Under the pieces are notes generated by a model. The model did no database searches, was not told the origin of the DNA, and was given only the letters and a program-made list of their open reading frames with translations. This document shows positions 29,598 to 54,500 of a stretch of DNA of 64,000 nt, in pieces (position 1 is the first letter of the stretch; the number at the start of each line of letters is the position of its first letter). Location: the NCBI GenBank assembly GCA_018902385.1, contig JABSSW010000008.1:62001-126000 (forward strand). The letters are read 5' to 3'. Source of the stretch: Physcia stellaris. Taxonomy: Eukaryota; Ascomycota; Lecanoromycetes; Caliciales; Physciaceae. The position numbers and the translations under genes were made by a program.

Positions 29598-29895
29598 TGA
29601 TGTTGGCTGAGGTCTCGCATAAAATCTTTTCTGGTGAGGATGCCAGGGTCCTTTGGCGAGAAAATGATGTTGGCAGAGAATCTCACATAAAGTGTTTGGC
29701 TGATAACGATATAAATTACAAGGGTCCTTAGGCCAGAGTTTGGCTGAGAATCTCACATAAAGTGTTTGCTGAGAACTGTATTGAATACCAGGGTCCTTTG
29801 GCGAGATAATGATGTTGGCAGAGAATCTCGCATAAAGTATTTGGCTGATAATGATATAGATTACAAGGGTCCTTTGGTGAGATACTTCTTTTTTG
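29598..29895. repeat. Nested tandem repeat, 145-bp period
   Basis: Two long units at 29644 and 29789 share CAGGGTCCTTTGGCGAGA, ATGATGTTGGCAGAGAATCT, CATAAAGT(G/A)TTTGGCTGATAA and GATTACAAGGGTCC with few changes. Within each, a shorter motif GAGAATCTCRCATAAAGT recurs two or three times. A partial copy precedes them at about 29598. A higher-order minisatellite. Confidence 0.75.
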
Positions 29896-30864
29896 GCGAG
29901 AATATCGGTCAAATCTTGGGTACCGCTAATACTGACAATACGTTACCACCCAGCAGAAAAGCCCACGCAGTTGTCTACCACCTCGTCCTGAATGCACACG
30001 GGTGTGAATGTCTCGCGGATCTTCTTTCCCATGTGCCAATAGCTGATCGAGACCAGAAATTATGAGCTAGACGCCGTGGTTGAGCTGGTGCGGCGCTGGT
30101 GATGCTTCAGCTTCACTGCCAGACCACCTCACGCGATCCCATTTCTTCGAAGTCTTGCCAGGAAGTCGCCGCAACGTCTGGGAGTCATTTGAAGAGTACA
30201 CGAAGATATCTGGGAGGCGAGGGGACGGCCGCTTGGCAGCTGACGCCTGAACAGAGAGATCGGCTGCTTGCGGCTGCTTGAGCTGTAACGTACTTCTAAA
30301 GACTCGCTATTGATTGGGAGGAGGACATGCAGGGTGGTTAGGCTTCGTGAAGCTAGGTATGGGTGCTGGAGCTGCGCTGCGCAGCGCAGAGTCGAGGTCA
30401 CCGCTGACTCCTTTTAGTTGATCGTAACAACAGCTCCCACTAGAAAGACTTACAATGCCAACTCCATACGTTTTCCTATTGTGGCTTGGTGTGGAGGACG
30501 AGCATATTTGGTTAGATCCGACCGATTTCCTCTCGAGTCGTTCACTCCTTTGTCGCCACGGATTCCTCCATCATCAAGCCCCTATCCGCAGACCGCAGAG
30601 CGCTTCGGAGGCATATAGAGAGGTCACTGGAGTTCCAAGGTCGTCTAGACATTGGCAGAGGTGGCTGCAGCTACTTCGGATTCCTCAGGCTAGGCTAATT
30701 TAGCTTCGTCGGTCGCGCTTCGTTACCGGGACGATCTACACAGGGATTTTTTGGCAAGGATAGCATGTGTTGAGGACGTCAAGCCATGACATTTGAGGAT
30801 GGGGGAGAATGGACGACCATTGCGAGTCGCTCATGAGGAGTCACAAACTCATAGCTGAAGGAAG
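29896..30864. other. Gene-poor stretch
   Basis: No supported gene, RNA or repeat. Short frames at 30129-30401 and 30418-30703 show no domain. Confidence 0.4.
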
Positions 30865-31498
30865 CCGCCGTCGCATTATTGGAAATCAAGCCGCACTCTT
30901 CAAGTCTGGAAGATACTCGGATTTGACCATCGCTTGCAAGAGTAATGAATGACACAATGTCGTTTGCTTTCACTCAAGCTTTTTCGCTGCGGCTTGCGAT
31001 ATTGATTTTCAGACGAGCTTTGTTTCAACGATGTGAAAGTCTCGAACTAATGAGACATAGGAAGCGAAAGAAGGAAAGATCAATCTTCCTGAAGACGATC
31101 CAGAAATCGTAGATTTGATATTGCAGTATCTCTACAAGCTTGACTACAATGACGAGGGCCATACTGCAATTGAAACAGCCACCGCTGATGTGCATCACCA
31201 AAGCAGCTCTGCTCAATTTCCGAATGATCTATTATCGTCTTCTACAGCGGTCACTGGTGAAGCCACCCTTGAAGGCGAGAACACTGTCGCAGCCGAGTCT
31301 CTAGAGCATGTCGAGACGAAAGATGATGTGCACGGCAAAAGCAGCTCTGCTCAGTTCCTGAACGATCTGTTATCATCTTCTACAGCGGTTACTGGCGAAG
31401 CCACCCGTGAAGGCGAGGACTCTGTCGCAGCCGAGGCTCTAGAGCATGTCGAGAGGAGATTTTTCGAGGTAATGCTGGATGGAAAAGAGGTGCTGTAG
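30865..31498 (+). pseudogene. BTB/POZ-domain pseudogene
   Basis: The first part reads ALFKSGRYSDLTIACKSNE, a stop codon at 30951-30953, then HNVVCFHSSFFAAACDIDFQ; the second, after about 50 bp, reads EAKEGKINLPEDDPEIVDLI then LQYLYKLDYND. Together they give the order of a fungal BTB domain (SDLTI.C ... VC.xSxFFAAACxxxF ... EAxEGxIxLPEDDPEIVxLxLQYLY). A position where such genes usually have an intron now has ACGAGC in place of a GT donor. The C-to-T type stop and the lost donor suggest decay, possibly RIP-like. The tail contains two copies of a 46-residue segment. BTB proteins usually act in protein interaction or as Cul3 adaptors; this copy is unlikely to work. Confidence 0.6.
31201..31476 (+). 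repeat. 138-bp tandem duplication in the BTB relic
   Basis: Two copies starting at 31201 and 31339. Both contain AAGCAGCTCTGCTCA, TCTTCTACAGCGGT, GAAGCCACCC and CTAGAGCATGTCGAGA in the same order; the translation repeats SSSAQFxNDLLSSSTAVTGE. The copies differ at about 12-15 positions, so the duplication is older than the last few changes. Confidence 0.85.
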
Positions 31499-31778
31499 AC
31501 GGAGTGAGTAGCGGAATGGAGAACTGAAAATCCAAAGATGTCGCAGAAAATCTGGACTTTTATTCAAACCTCCGAACAACGAATGCGGACATTGTTAGAT
31601 AGTGCACGGGGTGACCGATTCGTGCGCATACTAGAGTGATAGATGCCAAGCCCGCAACTAAGTCCTGCCACCTCTTCTCCAGCTTCTGTACTTTTTCGTC
31701 TCATCCACCCACTACATACATTAAGTACCTCAGCTCTAACAGTTCCCATGTAAAAACATTTCCAATCATTCAAAACAA
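31499..31778. other. Short gene-free stretch
   Basis: Nothing recognised between the BTB relic and repeat copy C. Confidence 0.4.
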
Positions 31779-31892
31779 TCCCCTCCACAGCCCCATATTA
31801 AATGGAGTCTGCAGTGGGGCCGCCTCTCATAACAAAGCTTCTCAATACATGGCCACTTGGGAAAAAGAGAAATGAAAAAACGGCAAACTCAC
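31779..31892. repeat. Dispersed 110-bp repeat, copy C
   Basis: Copy C: TCCCCTCCACAGCCCCATAT, then GGAGTCTGCAGTGGGGCCGC, then CTCTCATAACAAAGCTTCTC and AATACATGGCCAC, with an A-rich tail. Closest to copy B in the first half. It lies beyond the 3' end of the second broken coiled-coil ORF, with two minisatellites between. Confidence 0.75.
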
Positions 31893-31916
31893 CTATGATT
31901 CCGCACACACCCAAAC

Positions 31917-32058
31917 TCCTCCATGCGCACACACTCAGAGTCCTCCATTCGCTCACACCCAACTTCTCCATCCGCTCACACCCAGACTCCTCCATCCGCA
32001 CACACCTAAGTATTCGTCCCCCCCTCCGCATACACCTCTGTATTCCTCCCCCCTTCCG
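31917..32058. repeat. 24-bp minisatellite
   Basis: About six units of CTCCATCCGCTCACACCCAG with a 3-6 base variable end, becoming CCTCCGCATACACCTCTGTA-like in the last two units. The array is C-rich on the plus strand. Confidence 0.75.
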
Positions 32059-32294
32059 TACCAGAAAGGTGATAGAGACCCCTCTACAACACAAGGTCGT
32101 GATGTCAGGGCCCGATCTCTATCGACCTCCAAGCTCAAGCTCGACGTAGAGTAACAAGCCAGTTTCTGCACCACACCGCAAGCGCTCCGGAGACAAGCCT
32201 GCACTTGCTGCACGCGGAGTCGACATAAATGTCGAAAGTGGTACCGTTACCGCGACTTGTTACCCAGGGTATCGAGTCTGCCCATCAGCGGAGA

Positions 32295-32915
32295 GAGCTC
32301 CTCTGGAACAAGTCCAGAGAAACGGACTGCATGCTGAGCTTTTCAACGTCTGCTCCACTGGAACAAAGTCCAGAGAAACCGACTGGGCGATGAGCTTTTC
32401 ATCGTCTGCTCCGCTGGAACAAAGTCCAGAGAAACCGACTGAGCAATGAGCTTTTCAGCGTCTGCTCCGCTGGAACAAAGTCCAGAGAAACCGACTGAGC
32501 AATGAGCTTTTCAGCGTCTGCTCCGCTGGAATAAAGTCCAGAGAAACCGACTGCGCATCAGCTGAGAGAGCTCCTCTGAAACAAAGTCCAGAGAAACAAA
32601 CTCCGCGCTGAGCTTCTCAGCGTCTGCTCACTCTGGAATAAAGTCCAGAGAAACGGACTGCGCATCAGCTGAGAGAGCTCCTCTGGAACAAAGTCCAGAG
32701 AAACAAACTCCGCGCTGAGCTTATCAGCCTTTGCCCATCAGCTGAAATTAGAGAGCTCCTCTGGAACAAGTCCAGAGAAACAAACGGACTGTGCGCTGGG
32801 CTTATCAGCGTCTGCCCATCACTTGAGAGAGCTTCTCGTGATGGACAGAGAGAGCTTCTCTGGAACAAAGTCCAGAGAAACAAACTCCGCGCTAAGCTTC
32901 TCAGCGTCTGCAACT
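32295..32915. repeat. 56-bp minisatellite with hairpin core
   Basis: About ten units. The clearest run, 32347-32515, has a 56-bp period with TCTGCTCCGCTGGAACAAAG, TCCAGAGAAACCGACTGAGC and AATGAGCTTTTCAGCG. Every unit contains CTGGAACAAAGTCCAG or a close variant, an inverted repeat with a 5- to 7-base stem and a 6-base loop. Outer units have insertions such as CATCAGCTGAGAGAG. Confidence 0.85.
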
Positions 32916-32920
32916 AGTGC

Positions 32921-33468
32921 TTAAGACTGGCTGTTCAGCTTCTTGTTGAGCGCATCGCTGATCCCCTCAGAAGCCACAGAAGAGTTTTTCAAGAAGGTCG
33001 CGGAGGACTCTGCTTGAGAGAGCTCGGCGCCAACTTTCCGTGCGATGGAGTGGGAGTCATTAAGACCGTTGACCAGCCTCGTGACTTGACCACCCATCGC
33101 AAGCCAGCTCCCGGGATCTCCTCTTAAGCTCGATGCCCTTCTCATCAAGCTCCTTCTGCTCTCCCTCAATGTCTCCTCTCCCTCCCTCAGCTTCTCCACT
33201 CCCTCCCTCAGCTTCTCCTGCCCTTCCTTCAACTTCTCCTTCCTTTCCTCAGCTCCCTCACTCCGCCCTTCAGCTTCTCCTCCGCCTCCTTCAACTTCTC
33301 CTTCCTCTCCCTCAGCTTCTCCTCCTTCACATCTAAGCCCTCATGTTTTGCCCTCAGTTCGCCAGCTCTCTCCTCACCCTGCCGCCACACCTCGCTCTCT
33401 CGAGCTTTCACACTCTCGACAGCTGGACGATGCGCATCACAGAGTTCGTCGAGAAGCTGGTCGAGCAT
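32921..33468 (-). pseudogene. Broken coiled-coil ORF
   Basis: Minus-strand frames read MLDQLLDELCDAHRPAVESV, KEEKLRERKEKLKEAEEKL, then in the next frame EKLKEGQEKLREGVEKLREG and a C-terminal part TRLVNGLNDSHSIARKVGAE. The Lys/Glu repeats (EKLREGxEKLREG) form a strong predicted coiled coil encoded by short tandem repeats of DNA. The frame changes once near 33.24 kb, inside the repeat. Further upstream, to about 33.65 kb, related protein-like sequence (RPLHEAERKRNEESVQK) is interrupted. No family is recognised. Same setting as the coiled-coil ORF at 12 kb. Confidence 0.4.
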
Positions 33469-49931: not shown

Positions 49932-51131
49932 ATGGCAGAACAGCAAGATACACTTCCGGAGGTGAAGATCCGTGCGTTTGCTGGCCTAGCTGCAGCCATG
50001 ATGAAAAAAGCCAAAGCTACTAAAGCTTCGCAATCGAGTTCCCCTTCTAGGACTAGCATTAATCGATGCTCTTCCGAGGGTGAAGCTGAGATGCTTAGTA
50101 GCAACGCGGACGATGACGAAGAAGAAGACGATAAGGAAGTTGAGATAGGAATTATCAAGACCGCCCAATCTATCATGAAAAAGTCCGGTCTCAACAGTCT
50201 GAGTGATTCGGAGGACAACGAGCTACCACGATGGACTAACCCCAATCCGAAGAAGAGGAAACGAACAGAGGAAGAGCAGAAGAGACGTAAGCCTGACGGA
50301 TTCGACTATGCTGGAATGAACACACGCAACATGGCTCCAAAGATCGTATATCCGCAAGACCGTAAAATCTTGAATAGGCTCACGACTAGAGCTTGGATCG
50401 GGGAAGCCAAGGCAGCCGGCTTGGCCGAGACGCGTACGTATATCACTACAGATCATCTTGGCTTGGAAGACGAGGACGATACCGAATTTGCGCGGCCGTT
50501 CGCTTCTCTTTACCCCAGAGTCATTCCAAAGGATAGTATGCCTCTTAAGGATCGAAAGCGCTTCTTCATCTACACGCCAACCGCAGCCATGGAGAAAGCC
50601 ATGCGAGCACACGTCTCCGAAATTCACCAGATATTCGCTCCGATTGAGAAGATTGATGATTGCATGCTCCATCCAGATCCTCCCCCATGCCGTGTGGATG
50701 GAAAGCCGATAGGGACAATAAAGTACAATTACCAATGGAGAGACGTGAGCGGCGTCCACAAAATCACTGTCAACTACGGCGTCATTGCACTGCTCATCAA
50801 TTCTCGCTTGACGGCGGCGCAGAAAGAAGGCTGGATTGAGGAAGCGTGGCATCTAAGCCACTTATGTGGCAACTGGATCTGCTGCAATTGGCGACACCAC
50901 ACGGTTGAGGATGGGCCTACGAATATCAGCCGCAATGGGTGCTTCGGGTCCTCCAAGGAGTGTGTGCACAATCCGCCATGCATGAAGGATAAGAAGCAGA
51001 AGCTGCTATTGCCGGCCAATAAGAAGACGTCAAAGCAAGTAGCTTTGCCGGGGATGACGGACACTAATATCGAGGTGGACGAAGAGAGTTCCGAAAGCGG
51101 CTGCTCAATCAATTGCGATTGTTGCGATTAG
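49932..51131 (+). CDS. I-PpoI-like His-Me finger nuclease domain protein
   Basis: Single exon, 399 residues. The N-terminal 130 residues are acidic and disordered (DDDEEEDDKEVEIG), with a basic NLS-like NPKKRKRTEEEQKRRK. The C-terminal part carries the zinc-binding His-Me finger of the I-PpoI type: HLSHLCGNWICCNWRHHTVE (about 307-326), then TNISRNGCFGSSKECVHNPP and CMKDK. It aligns by eye with I-PpoI ASHLCHNTRCHNPLH ... GRNWCPG ... CVHAVVC: the general-base His (SHLC), the metal-binding Asn (RNxC) and most zinc Cys/His ligands are present. Known for I-PpoI: a homing endonuclease encoded in an rDNA intron. This ORF is not inside an intron or rDNA and carries a nuclear-protein-like N-terminus, so it is probably a host gene derived from such a nuclease. 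The C-terminus ends in CSINCDCCD. Confidence 0.85.
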   Translation: MAEQQDTLPEVKIRAFAGLAAAMMKKAKATKASQSSSPSRTSINRCSSEGEAEMLSSNADDDEEEDDKEVEIGIIKTAQSIMKKSGLNSLSDSEDNELPRWTNPNPKKRKRTEEEQKRRKPDGFDYAGMNTRNMAPKIVYPQDRKILNRLTTRAWIGEAKAAGLAETRTYITTDHLGLEDEDDTEFARPFASLYPRVIPKDSMPLKDRKRFFIYTPTAAMEKAMRAHVSEIHQIFAPIEKIDDCMLHPDPPPCRVDGKPIGTIKYNYQWRDVSGVHKITVNYGVIALLINSRLTAAQKEGWIEEAWHLSHLCGNWICCNWRHHTVEDGPTNISRNGCFGSSKECVHNPPCMKDKKQKLLLPANKKTSKQVALPGMTDTNIEVDEESSESGCSINCDCCD

Positions 51132-51513
51132 ATCAAATGCGAGAAGGCTCAAGCGAATGGCGAAGACGCCGAGCCAAAGAGCGCAGAGGTTCTGGTTAAG
51201 GTGAAAAGGTCGGATTAGTCGAGGTGAAGGCGGAGGCAGACGGCGAGCAGCGGAGGAAAGGTGATAATGATAGTGATCCAAGCGGATGATGATGAGGAAG
51301 CGGCGAATAATGACTCTAGGATAGCATGCGTTTCACACAAATAGCGAGTCAGCAAGGATCAGGTAGCCTGCGTTGGGAACAGCTCTAGGATCTTACGCAA
51401 TATGCTTAGTTTTAGGCAGACAGGATAGCCGGAATTTCGATGCTAATTCATGACAGCTTGCTTCAACTTACCTCCGGATAGCCCTGTATACTTCGAAGAC
51501 TGCTCGAAGGCTT
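51132..51513. other. Convergent intergenic region
   Basis: 380 bp between the ends of the nuclease gene and the oxygenase-like gene. Purine-rich on the plus strand at its start; no gene. Confidence 0.5.
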
Positions 51514-54500
51514 TTAGTCTTCAAGATCGATAACCTCTACGCCCGACTTGTGCATCATCGCCTGTTGCGGAGCTGATGCTTGAACTTCAGCGAGCGCGGT
51601 ACGATGATGTTTATCAGGGCCATCTCGGTGAGACACGTCGACTGATTGCAGTTCAGTAAGCTCGCTGTATACCTCGTCGAGGAGTTGACGTAAGGCGTCG
51701 AAACCTATGCGATCAAAGAATCCTCTTGCCTCTTTGCAGCGCTCTTCCCACGCTTTGTGATCATGCTCATATCGGATCCTGGTCTTTGTCAAGACTAAAG
51801 TGTGCGGTGCTGTCGGGTTCTGCTGGGTCCTTTTGTCAACTGAAATCTCTTGGCGCAAAGAGGACTCAAGATGATCTCGACGCTTGCCAGTGCCTTTGAA
51901 ATACATTGTCTGCTGCGAGGGACTCTTGAGGAAAAAATTAAGTTCATGGCAGTCCTTACAGCCACATCCTCTCCTGGGAAGGCTCCAGTCTCTCGGCGGC
52001 TGAGGCTTCATACCAACGAATTTCGTGACGAACATGGCAATAACGAGGCGGAAGAGCTTCGAATATCTAAGGTTGGTAAAAGCAACATGCTGTTTTCGCA
52101 TTACAGCCGCGAGACCTTCAACAAAAGGCATAAGGATCAAATGCAGAGTCCTAGCGTTGCCTAGGCTGGCTTCTTTCTCGACTTGCGCAAGCAACATCTC
52201 GGATTCTTGATCAAGTCCGAGATCCAAACACATCTCGACTATAGATGCCCGATGATGCTTTTGGGCGGTTGGTCCATTATCTGCACAATCGCCATCCTGA
52301 ATCGTGTCCAGCTTCTGGCGCTTGACTGGGGGCGACGTAGGTTCAACGGCAAATGTCGGAACCATACTTATAACCATCTCACGGGCTGCTATTGTAGTAG
52401 TCTGCACATCTATCTTTCGAGATTGGTGGGCCTCTCTAATACGATCCATGAAAATCGATGCAAACTCGAATACTGATCCGTTGCGTTTAGCTAACGGTAG
52501 TATCCTTCAATCGATGTCAGCGCACTGCACTTGGAACTTTTCACATTGCCAGGCTTACTTAGCGATGAAAAACTCTTGTCCGTACTTCTCACCCCATTCC
52601 ATTAGAGTAGTGGCATCTTGTGGCTCAACGATACTCTTGGCACCGAGGGAGTGCTCTATTTCAGATCGAATCCATTGTTCCACTGCTACCTTGGCAGACT
52701 CGCTGGGTGCTTGACTTTCATAGCCTTTTTGAATTGACCCCAGAAGGCGGTCAATATCGCCAATGGTCGTCATCTTGTCCAGTGCTAGATGTACTCTGTG
52801 AACAATGTCAGTTCGGAAGTGGTATGGGTAAGGACAAGAAGCGTTCGTACCCATCACGGCACCAATCCAAGCCGAGCCTTTTCATCGCAGAGCCTATGCC
52901 GAAGGAAACATCAAACGATAGACAATCAGCCTTGAAAGCGAGCACTCTATCGAACAGAGACTTGTCACTCAAAGTGATTGCAACACGGATGAGCATGGCG
53001 AAGTCGTCATTAGGATTCCGGATCTTCGGTTGACAGTACGAGTAATTCTCCACCACTTTACGGGGTTTTAAAAGCTTATCTAGGTAGAGCGAACAGATAG
53101 CCTCCAGGTCATTCCTGGCGTTCTTGGTTATATCCTCGTCTTTCGACGATTGATCGTCCAACAACTGTTGGATCCAGGACCTTATCTCATCGTCTGAGCT
53201 GTTCTCGACAAAGAATCTGACTCGGTGATTCTCTGGTATGATTACAAAAACCTATACAGAAGTCAGCAATCCAATGTATTTAGCATGAAAAATCTCGGAA
53301 ACGAGGTCTCCTTCTTCGAGCCTGGTACAGCGGTACAATAGAGTATCTGCCGTGACATCGTGCGAAATTGATCGTTGTTTCCTTTAACCCAATTTCCAGG
53401 TTCTCGAGTTATTCATAACAAAGCAAAAGTAGTACCAAGCAGCTCTTGATCTCTCCGAATGAGCCGAAACCTGTAGGCTGCAGACGCCGATATAAAGCAT
53501 TGAGAAACTATTCAATCTTACCATGTCTTTGAAATGGTAATCATACACCTGATCAAAAGGATCCTCTGTACCATACTCGCTGTCATTAGACTCTCGATTT
53601 TTCAGGAAGTCATCAGGCATGATTTGCTCAATCTCAATCTTTTTGCTGGCATACGGAGTCTTGGCTCCCGTGAGACTGATTAGACAATTTACCTCGTAGG
53701 AATATTCAGAGTCTTCCAGGCTACTTTGCAACTGAGCCAAGAATGCACACATCCCTGTGTTTGCACACCTCTCCACAAGGTATTTCTCCCTCAGAACATC
53801 GGCTCCTGTAAGCACTGCGTCTCCTGGGTCGTGATGCGGACATTCATCTAGGACATAAACAAGTAGCGGGTCCGCTTGGCCGGATTTCTGCAAATTGTTC
53901 CATCTAGATAACTCGTTTTCAAAATCTTTGGCGTAGCGGGCCATAGCGCCTGCTGTCTCGATTTCCTGATACTTCGAGCCGTACAGCCTGTATTCTAGCA
54001 GAAGCCTGAAGCCCGACACGATTGGTTCAGTAGTACGAGTGACATCGGAGTAGCTACCAACATCAGCCCGCAGCAACACCAGCAAGCTTCATCGCTCCAT
54101 GCATACCTTGCAACATAGGACGTATCAAACTCGGAACATTCTGCAGTTTCGAAACTTTTGCTCGCTGATCTAAAGGAACATCTCAAGTGACCACCGGTGT
54201 GTACAGATGGCTTTTGCAGTTGTTAAAGAGCGAACAGCAATGGTACGAACCGACTTACTAAAGATAGCAACAATGACAGATGAGGACCTGCTTTGGATTC
54301 CATGGTACTAGCGAAACATTAGACAGGCTACTAGGACGCGACGATCAATGCTCACTGCGTTTGGAGTTCTCTATTTGAAGCTTGTTCAAGTCTTAGGCCG
54401 ACAAGCTCAAGCCGCAGAGATTCGACAGACATGCCTAGTGTTCTTGAACCAATTTCCATGACCGATCTATCCCAAGCTGGGTTGCGGAGGGTGAATCGAT

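Follow-up and report, generated by a model that had tools for sequence, protein, structure and literature searches.

The closest described counterpart of the gene reported here is I-PpoI, a homing endonuclease encoded within an rDNA intron of Physarum polycephalum (PDB 1a73, 1cz0, 1evw). Published accounts of I-PpoI-type enzymes name H98, H110 and N119 as residues of the catalytic motif, together with S97, E114 and eight conserved His/Cys positions (PMC9587614), and place His98 near the attacking water as its main activator, with the conserved asparagine holding the metal (PMC11325842). Genes of the I-PpoI kind have already been recorded away from rDNA introns. The KolobokP elements of animals carry His-Me finger nucleases that are, like the present one, I-PpoI-like, encoded in the nuclear genome and located outside rDNA introns, but which are accompanied by a DDD/E transposase and flanked by terminal repeats (PMC9587614), neither of which we found at our locus (for repeats of at least 18 bases). 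Naegleria rDNA plasmids bear PF05551 domains in free ORFs, as here, but these reside on an extrachromosomal rDNA plasmid (PMC12482156), whereas the fungal gene is chromosomal. Among the matches listed in a search of titles and abstract openings in the open-licence literature, none concerned an I-PpoI-like gene standing alone on a fungal chromosome. The gene reported here is an intact-looking addition to the known, little-studied PF05551 family; if active, it would be a natural DNA-cutting member of a rare-cutter enzyme family encoded away from any intron, and would illustrate the way in which genes of this kind are maintained on chromosomes.

The gene lies at 49932–51131 on the forward strand of the window (the whole 64-kb stretch of DNA that was analysed) and consists of a 399-codon ORF, read without introns, that runs from ATG to TAG and is preceded by 10 open codons. 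It sits on a 943-kb contig of an assembly of 44 Mb in 147 contigs. The longest ATG-initiated ORF across 100 simulated 10 kb sequences (first-order Markov) reached 213 codons, compared with 399 here. Codon usage also favours this reading: with a model trained on eight window ORFs, each left out in turn (own scores 0.009–0.17), the nuclease frame is the most gene-like of the six at 0.07, with the other five at or below −0.057, a test that is weak because off-frame readings of the training ORFs score up to 0.095. Immediately 3′ of the stop, 28 codons in the same frame (51132–51215) have gene-like usage (0.131); either the stop may be a recent gain or a tail may have gone unannotated. A splice that would remove the stop (51039–51131) was judged by eye and rejected, having neither a consensus donor nor a well-placed branch site.

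The encoded protein is considerably longer than I-PpoI (399 versus 162–163 residues), and only the fungal protein has a long charged N-terminal part with an NLS-like motif. Residues 1–125 are rich in charged residues and Ser/Thr, and include the sequence PKKRKR at residues 106–111 (50247–50264, +), followed by further basic residues (KRRK); the NLS-like KKRKR stretch described in an earlier note on this DNA is thus present, and it suggests that the protein may be directed to the nucleus. The nuclease core spans residues 253–350 (50688–50981, +), from C253, the putative equivalent of Cys41 of I-PpoI, to C350, the equivalent of Cys138. Beyond it lies a C-terminal tail (residues 354–399; 50991–51128, +) ending in CSINCDCCD. 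The same note had called this tail acidic, which is true in direction but mild in degree (8 acidic versus 6 basic residues).

Assignment to the I-PpoI family draws on several searches. With hmmscan, residues 301–354 (50832–50993, +) match the I-PpoI zinc-loop family of Pfam (PF05551, zf-His_Me_endon) at 31.6 bits, above the curated cut-off of 27, and so agree with the family proposed from the letters alone. Fungal PF05551 proteins appear to be numerous in databases. A phmmer search of the PDB up to E 10 returned three distinct sequences, all of them I-PpoI (E 1.2 to 3.9), and the PADLOC homing endonuclease model matches residues 308–353 (E 0.0014); searching NCBIfam with the nuclease gave no match. 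I-PpoI 96–141 aligns to the C-terminal part of the nuclease over 46 residues without gaps, with 18/46 identical, and within it I-PpoI residues S97, H98, C100, C105, H110, E114, N119, R122, N123, C125, C132, H134 and C138 are all matched. The SHLC, RNGC and CVH...C elements therefore do follow one another in the order of I-PpoI, as had been noticed, with 7/7 zinc ligands of this stretch kept. The region from H310 (His98, catalytic) to N331 (Asn119, metal-binding) occupies 50859–50924 (+) and encloses the zinc-1 ligands C312, C317 and H322; the zinc-2 ligands C337, C344, H346 and C350 follow at 50940–50981 (+). Both the catalytic histidine and the metal-binding asparagine are accordingly represented in the alignment, as earlier claimed, but the asparagine had been sought in the wrong place: Asn119 corresponds to N331 in TNISRNGC, and the Asn of RNGC itself corresponds to Asn123.

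His-Cys box nucleases require eight ligands in two zinc sites, and the candidate for the eighth, suggested by spacing, is C253, which precedes C312 by 59 residues, as Cys41 precedes Cys100 in what we take to be the I-PpoI zinc-ligand numbering. In a 68-row alignment, C253 also sits in a column where at least 90% of the rows have Cys. The ordered motif SHxC-x4-C-x4-H-x8-N-x5-C-x6-C-x-H-x3-C occurs at residues 309–350; without its leading Ser it arose in 0 of 200,000 protein shuffles, whereas the part up to and including the Asn, its first half, arose in 5. Taken together, these results confirm the observation of an I-PpoI-like nuclease gene at this position and, as far as conserved residues can indicate, support a working nuclear nuclease.

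Structure prediction is consistent with an I-PpoI-type beta-beta-alpha metal core. A single-sequence model of residues 191–399 was unsuccessful (pLDDT 30.6), and an AlphaFold model of residues 205–365 built on the 68-row alignment had a mean pLDDT of 61.5 and a pTM of 0.44. Within the latter, the active-site part (residues 305–334) is predicted as strand-strand-helix with a local confidence of 85–89, an element partly put in by the alignment, since this is composed of phage and bacterial HNH relatives. In a PDB fold search, the best 4 of 146 matches are I-PpoI, all weak (E 0.16–0.21, TM 0.23), and among the best 50 of the 146 no match reached E≤0.001.

Turning to the genomic setting, the earlier description of the gene as stand-alone, outside rDNA and introns, stands: across the 64 kb, none of the Rfam families, among them those for rRNA and group I introns, reaches its gathering score, so that the rDNA group I intron in which the I-PpoI gene lives has no detected counterpart around the fungal one. 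Between 48.5 and 52.6 kb a single match was obtained at E≤5, unrelated and at chance level (E 4.1), and ARAGORN identified no tRNA in the setting of the gene. The nuclease gene lies in DNA of normal composition, and its named neighbours are of ordinary kinds, with glyoxal oxidase and WSC domains at 38.4–41.8 kb, an RRP40 exosome subunit at 56.7–57.3 kb and an Hsp70-like gene at 58.2–59.8 kb; a convergent neighbour (51514–52506, −) gave no Pfam match in its tested part (51514–52449). Elsewhere in the window, tandem repeats with unit lengths of 21–138 bases cluster at 29645–33343. Neither the 15-base I-PpoI site nor the 35-base LSU stretch around it (allowing up to 3 mismatches) was found in the assembly, from which rDNA may therefore be missing, so that the result has no bearing on the nuclease.

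We also searched the same genome for relatives, in six frames and exon by exon. At E≤10 there are four PF05551 places, the nuclease gene included, and the other three look broken; further places may exist, as only the best candidates were scored. The relic on contig C41 (L001; 49.4 bits) has an internal TGA, and its counterpart of the zinc ligand His110 is a Tyr; that on C61 (L002; 31 bits) is an open frame of 73 residues without two of the motif residues and without the zinc-2 set. A third, on C10 (L007, near 1501–1632), is PF05551-like (SHRCHQPCCVNPDHGVWE) and scores 23 bits, below the cut-off; Val replaces Asn119, and its frame lacks the zinc-2 set. All three relics keep the His98 position, and those on C41 and C61 keep Asn119. 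The short frames on C61 and C10 might be exons, introns being outside the model. No second DNA copy of the C41 relic stretch was found, and protein scans of genome contigs and of viral contigs with relic P0001 recovered no remote relatives. Two short stretches close to the C10 relic have further occurrences in the genome.

Because these relatives have decayed, the PF05551 family appears to turn over in the manner of selfish nuclease genes, and we consider it reasonably probable that the intact-looking gene encodes a nuclear I-PpoI-type His-Cys box nuclease descended from a mobile, selfish-type family that came and went in this genome, of which it is the sole intact-looking copy among the four places found. 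As proposed, a C-terminal domain (about residues 240–360) would be held by two zinc sites, H310 would activate a water molecule and N331 would hold a single catalytic metal ion, a chemistry with which the protein, probably acting as a homodimer, is expected to cut both strands of DNA. Activity, dimerisation, nuclear import and sequence-specific cutting are each predicted, and the gene may spread, or may once have spread, as a free-standing element.

Two alternatives concern where such a gene came from. One is that it is a nuclease of phage HNH type, separately acquired, and no His-Cys box enzyme. In its favour, a profile of 135 phage and bacterial HNH proteins (from 134 of 138 loci on viral and prokaryote contigs, gathered by motif pattern) matches the nuclease at 16.2 bits, compared with a maximum of 2.6 over 200 shuffles, and PHROG HNH families match it weakly (E 0.022 and 0.078). 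A scan of viral contig proteins with the nuclease domain found no remote relatives; tblastn gave one weak match each in phage and plasmid DNA (E 0.08 and 0.2). Nor is PF05551 itself decisive; of 40 viral records, a biased set chosen by motif and comprising the first 40 of at least 120 viral loci, all 40 match it at E≤1 and 29 exceed the cut-off, and a PF05551 match by itself was therefore not accepted as establishing a His-Cys box enzyme. The separating feature is the second zinc site. Phage and bacterial HNH proteins with HxCHNxxCxNPxH resemble the nuclease in having aligned zinc-1, catalytic His and Asn positions, but the ordered zinc-2 set present in both the nuclease and I-PpoI occurs in 0/135 of them, and a looser CxH..C after the core motif in just one (in L020). 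As the ordered site is absent from these proteins, we regard the common core as the His-Me finger and the zinc-2 site as the mark of the I-PpoI side; with I-PpoI also the only solved sequence match up to E 10, a phage HNH origin is highly improbable. A comparably slim chance attaches to the gene being the accessory nuclease of a DNA transposon, for which the KolobokP arrangement described above provides the precedent. The interval from 40.2 to 58.9 kb contains 32 stop-to-stop ORFs that are 110 aa or longer, none of which matches a Pfam transposase (E≤0.01, or E≤1 for the nuclease; four ORFs taken from the first ATG/TTG only). No element-end-like repeat pairs of at least 18 bases were found in 46–56 kb, and the 3.6 kb around the gene (49.0–52.6 kb) was detected at a single place in the genome.

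The remaining alternatives concern what has become of the gene since. The earlier note had read it as domesticated for genome defence, rDNA or DNA repair, and a host nuclease kept for such a cellular job, or for a programmed break, while the selfish members of its family decayed would account for the survival of one intact-looking copy of four, among ordinary genes (RRP40, Hsp70-like) and in DNA of normal composition, as well as for the NLS-like motif. However, a free-standing nuclear homing gene would be just as likely to have ordinary neighbours and an NLS, and with the other three of the four PF05551 places broken in appearance, a selfish-type, turning-over family fits at least as well as domestication; we therefore do not uphold that claim, and view domestication as possible but on the unlikely side. 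Were it nonetheless true, the host would have a DNA-break enzyme of a new kind. A particular version, which we hold with considerable doubt, is that a filamentous fungus has kept a once-selfish nuclear His-Cys box nuclease for programmed DNA breaks while genome defence destroyed its mobile relatives, in which case the enzyme would be the His-Cys counterpart of yeast HO endonuclease, itself descended from a homing element (PMC7282806). The broken look of the three relatives could also be read as the fate towards which this gene is heading, its ORF still open but selection gone, and the gene-like codons past the stop could then signify a newly gained stop. Yet 28 codons are too few to carry much weight, and the gene still encodes the catalytic residues and the zinc ligands, so that recent or ongoing inactivation seems rather unlikely to us. 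A once-mobile, selfish-type nuclease is the reading that we prefer.

The C41 and C61 relics lie inside AT-rich blocks of odd composition. Such blocks comprise six of 20 sampled stretches (L152, L153, L158, L159, L160 and L171, on contigs C41, C61 and C100), a proportion that gives no estimate of extent, four of the 20 having been picked beside the two AT-rich relics; one further stretch (L154) is intermediate (CC 0.25), and the other 13 have normal values (CC 0.82–1.08), some of them coming from contigs C41 and C61 as well. Within the blocks, CC/GG falls to 0.00–0.07 of expectation and CT/AG to 0.11–0.55, TA is low (0.35–0.49), and CA (1.09–1.43) and CG (2.7–3.8) are high. The pattern is what C-to-T changes at CpC and CpT would leave, a direction suggested by composition. 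Classical RIP changes CpA; in these blocks, by contrast, CpA is retained, CpC is almost entirely missing and CpT is much reduced. In earlier work, Amselem et al. describe CpA, CpT and CpG signatures, in a paper where the term CpC does not appear (PMC4352252), and RIPCAL treats CpC as a possible class, with Stagonospora nodorum showing dominant CpA and some CpT (PMC2621366); none of the literature titles among the matches listed concerns CpC-directed RIP. The CpC/CpT signature may merit separate study. The genome also contains three loci matching DNA cytosine methylase (PF00145), at C3:340323-341498, C5:498855-499792 (in two pieces) and C6:791557-792528, the last with two in-frame TGA codons in its matched stretch that possibly reflect introns.
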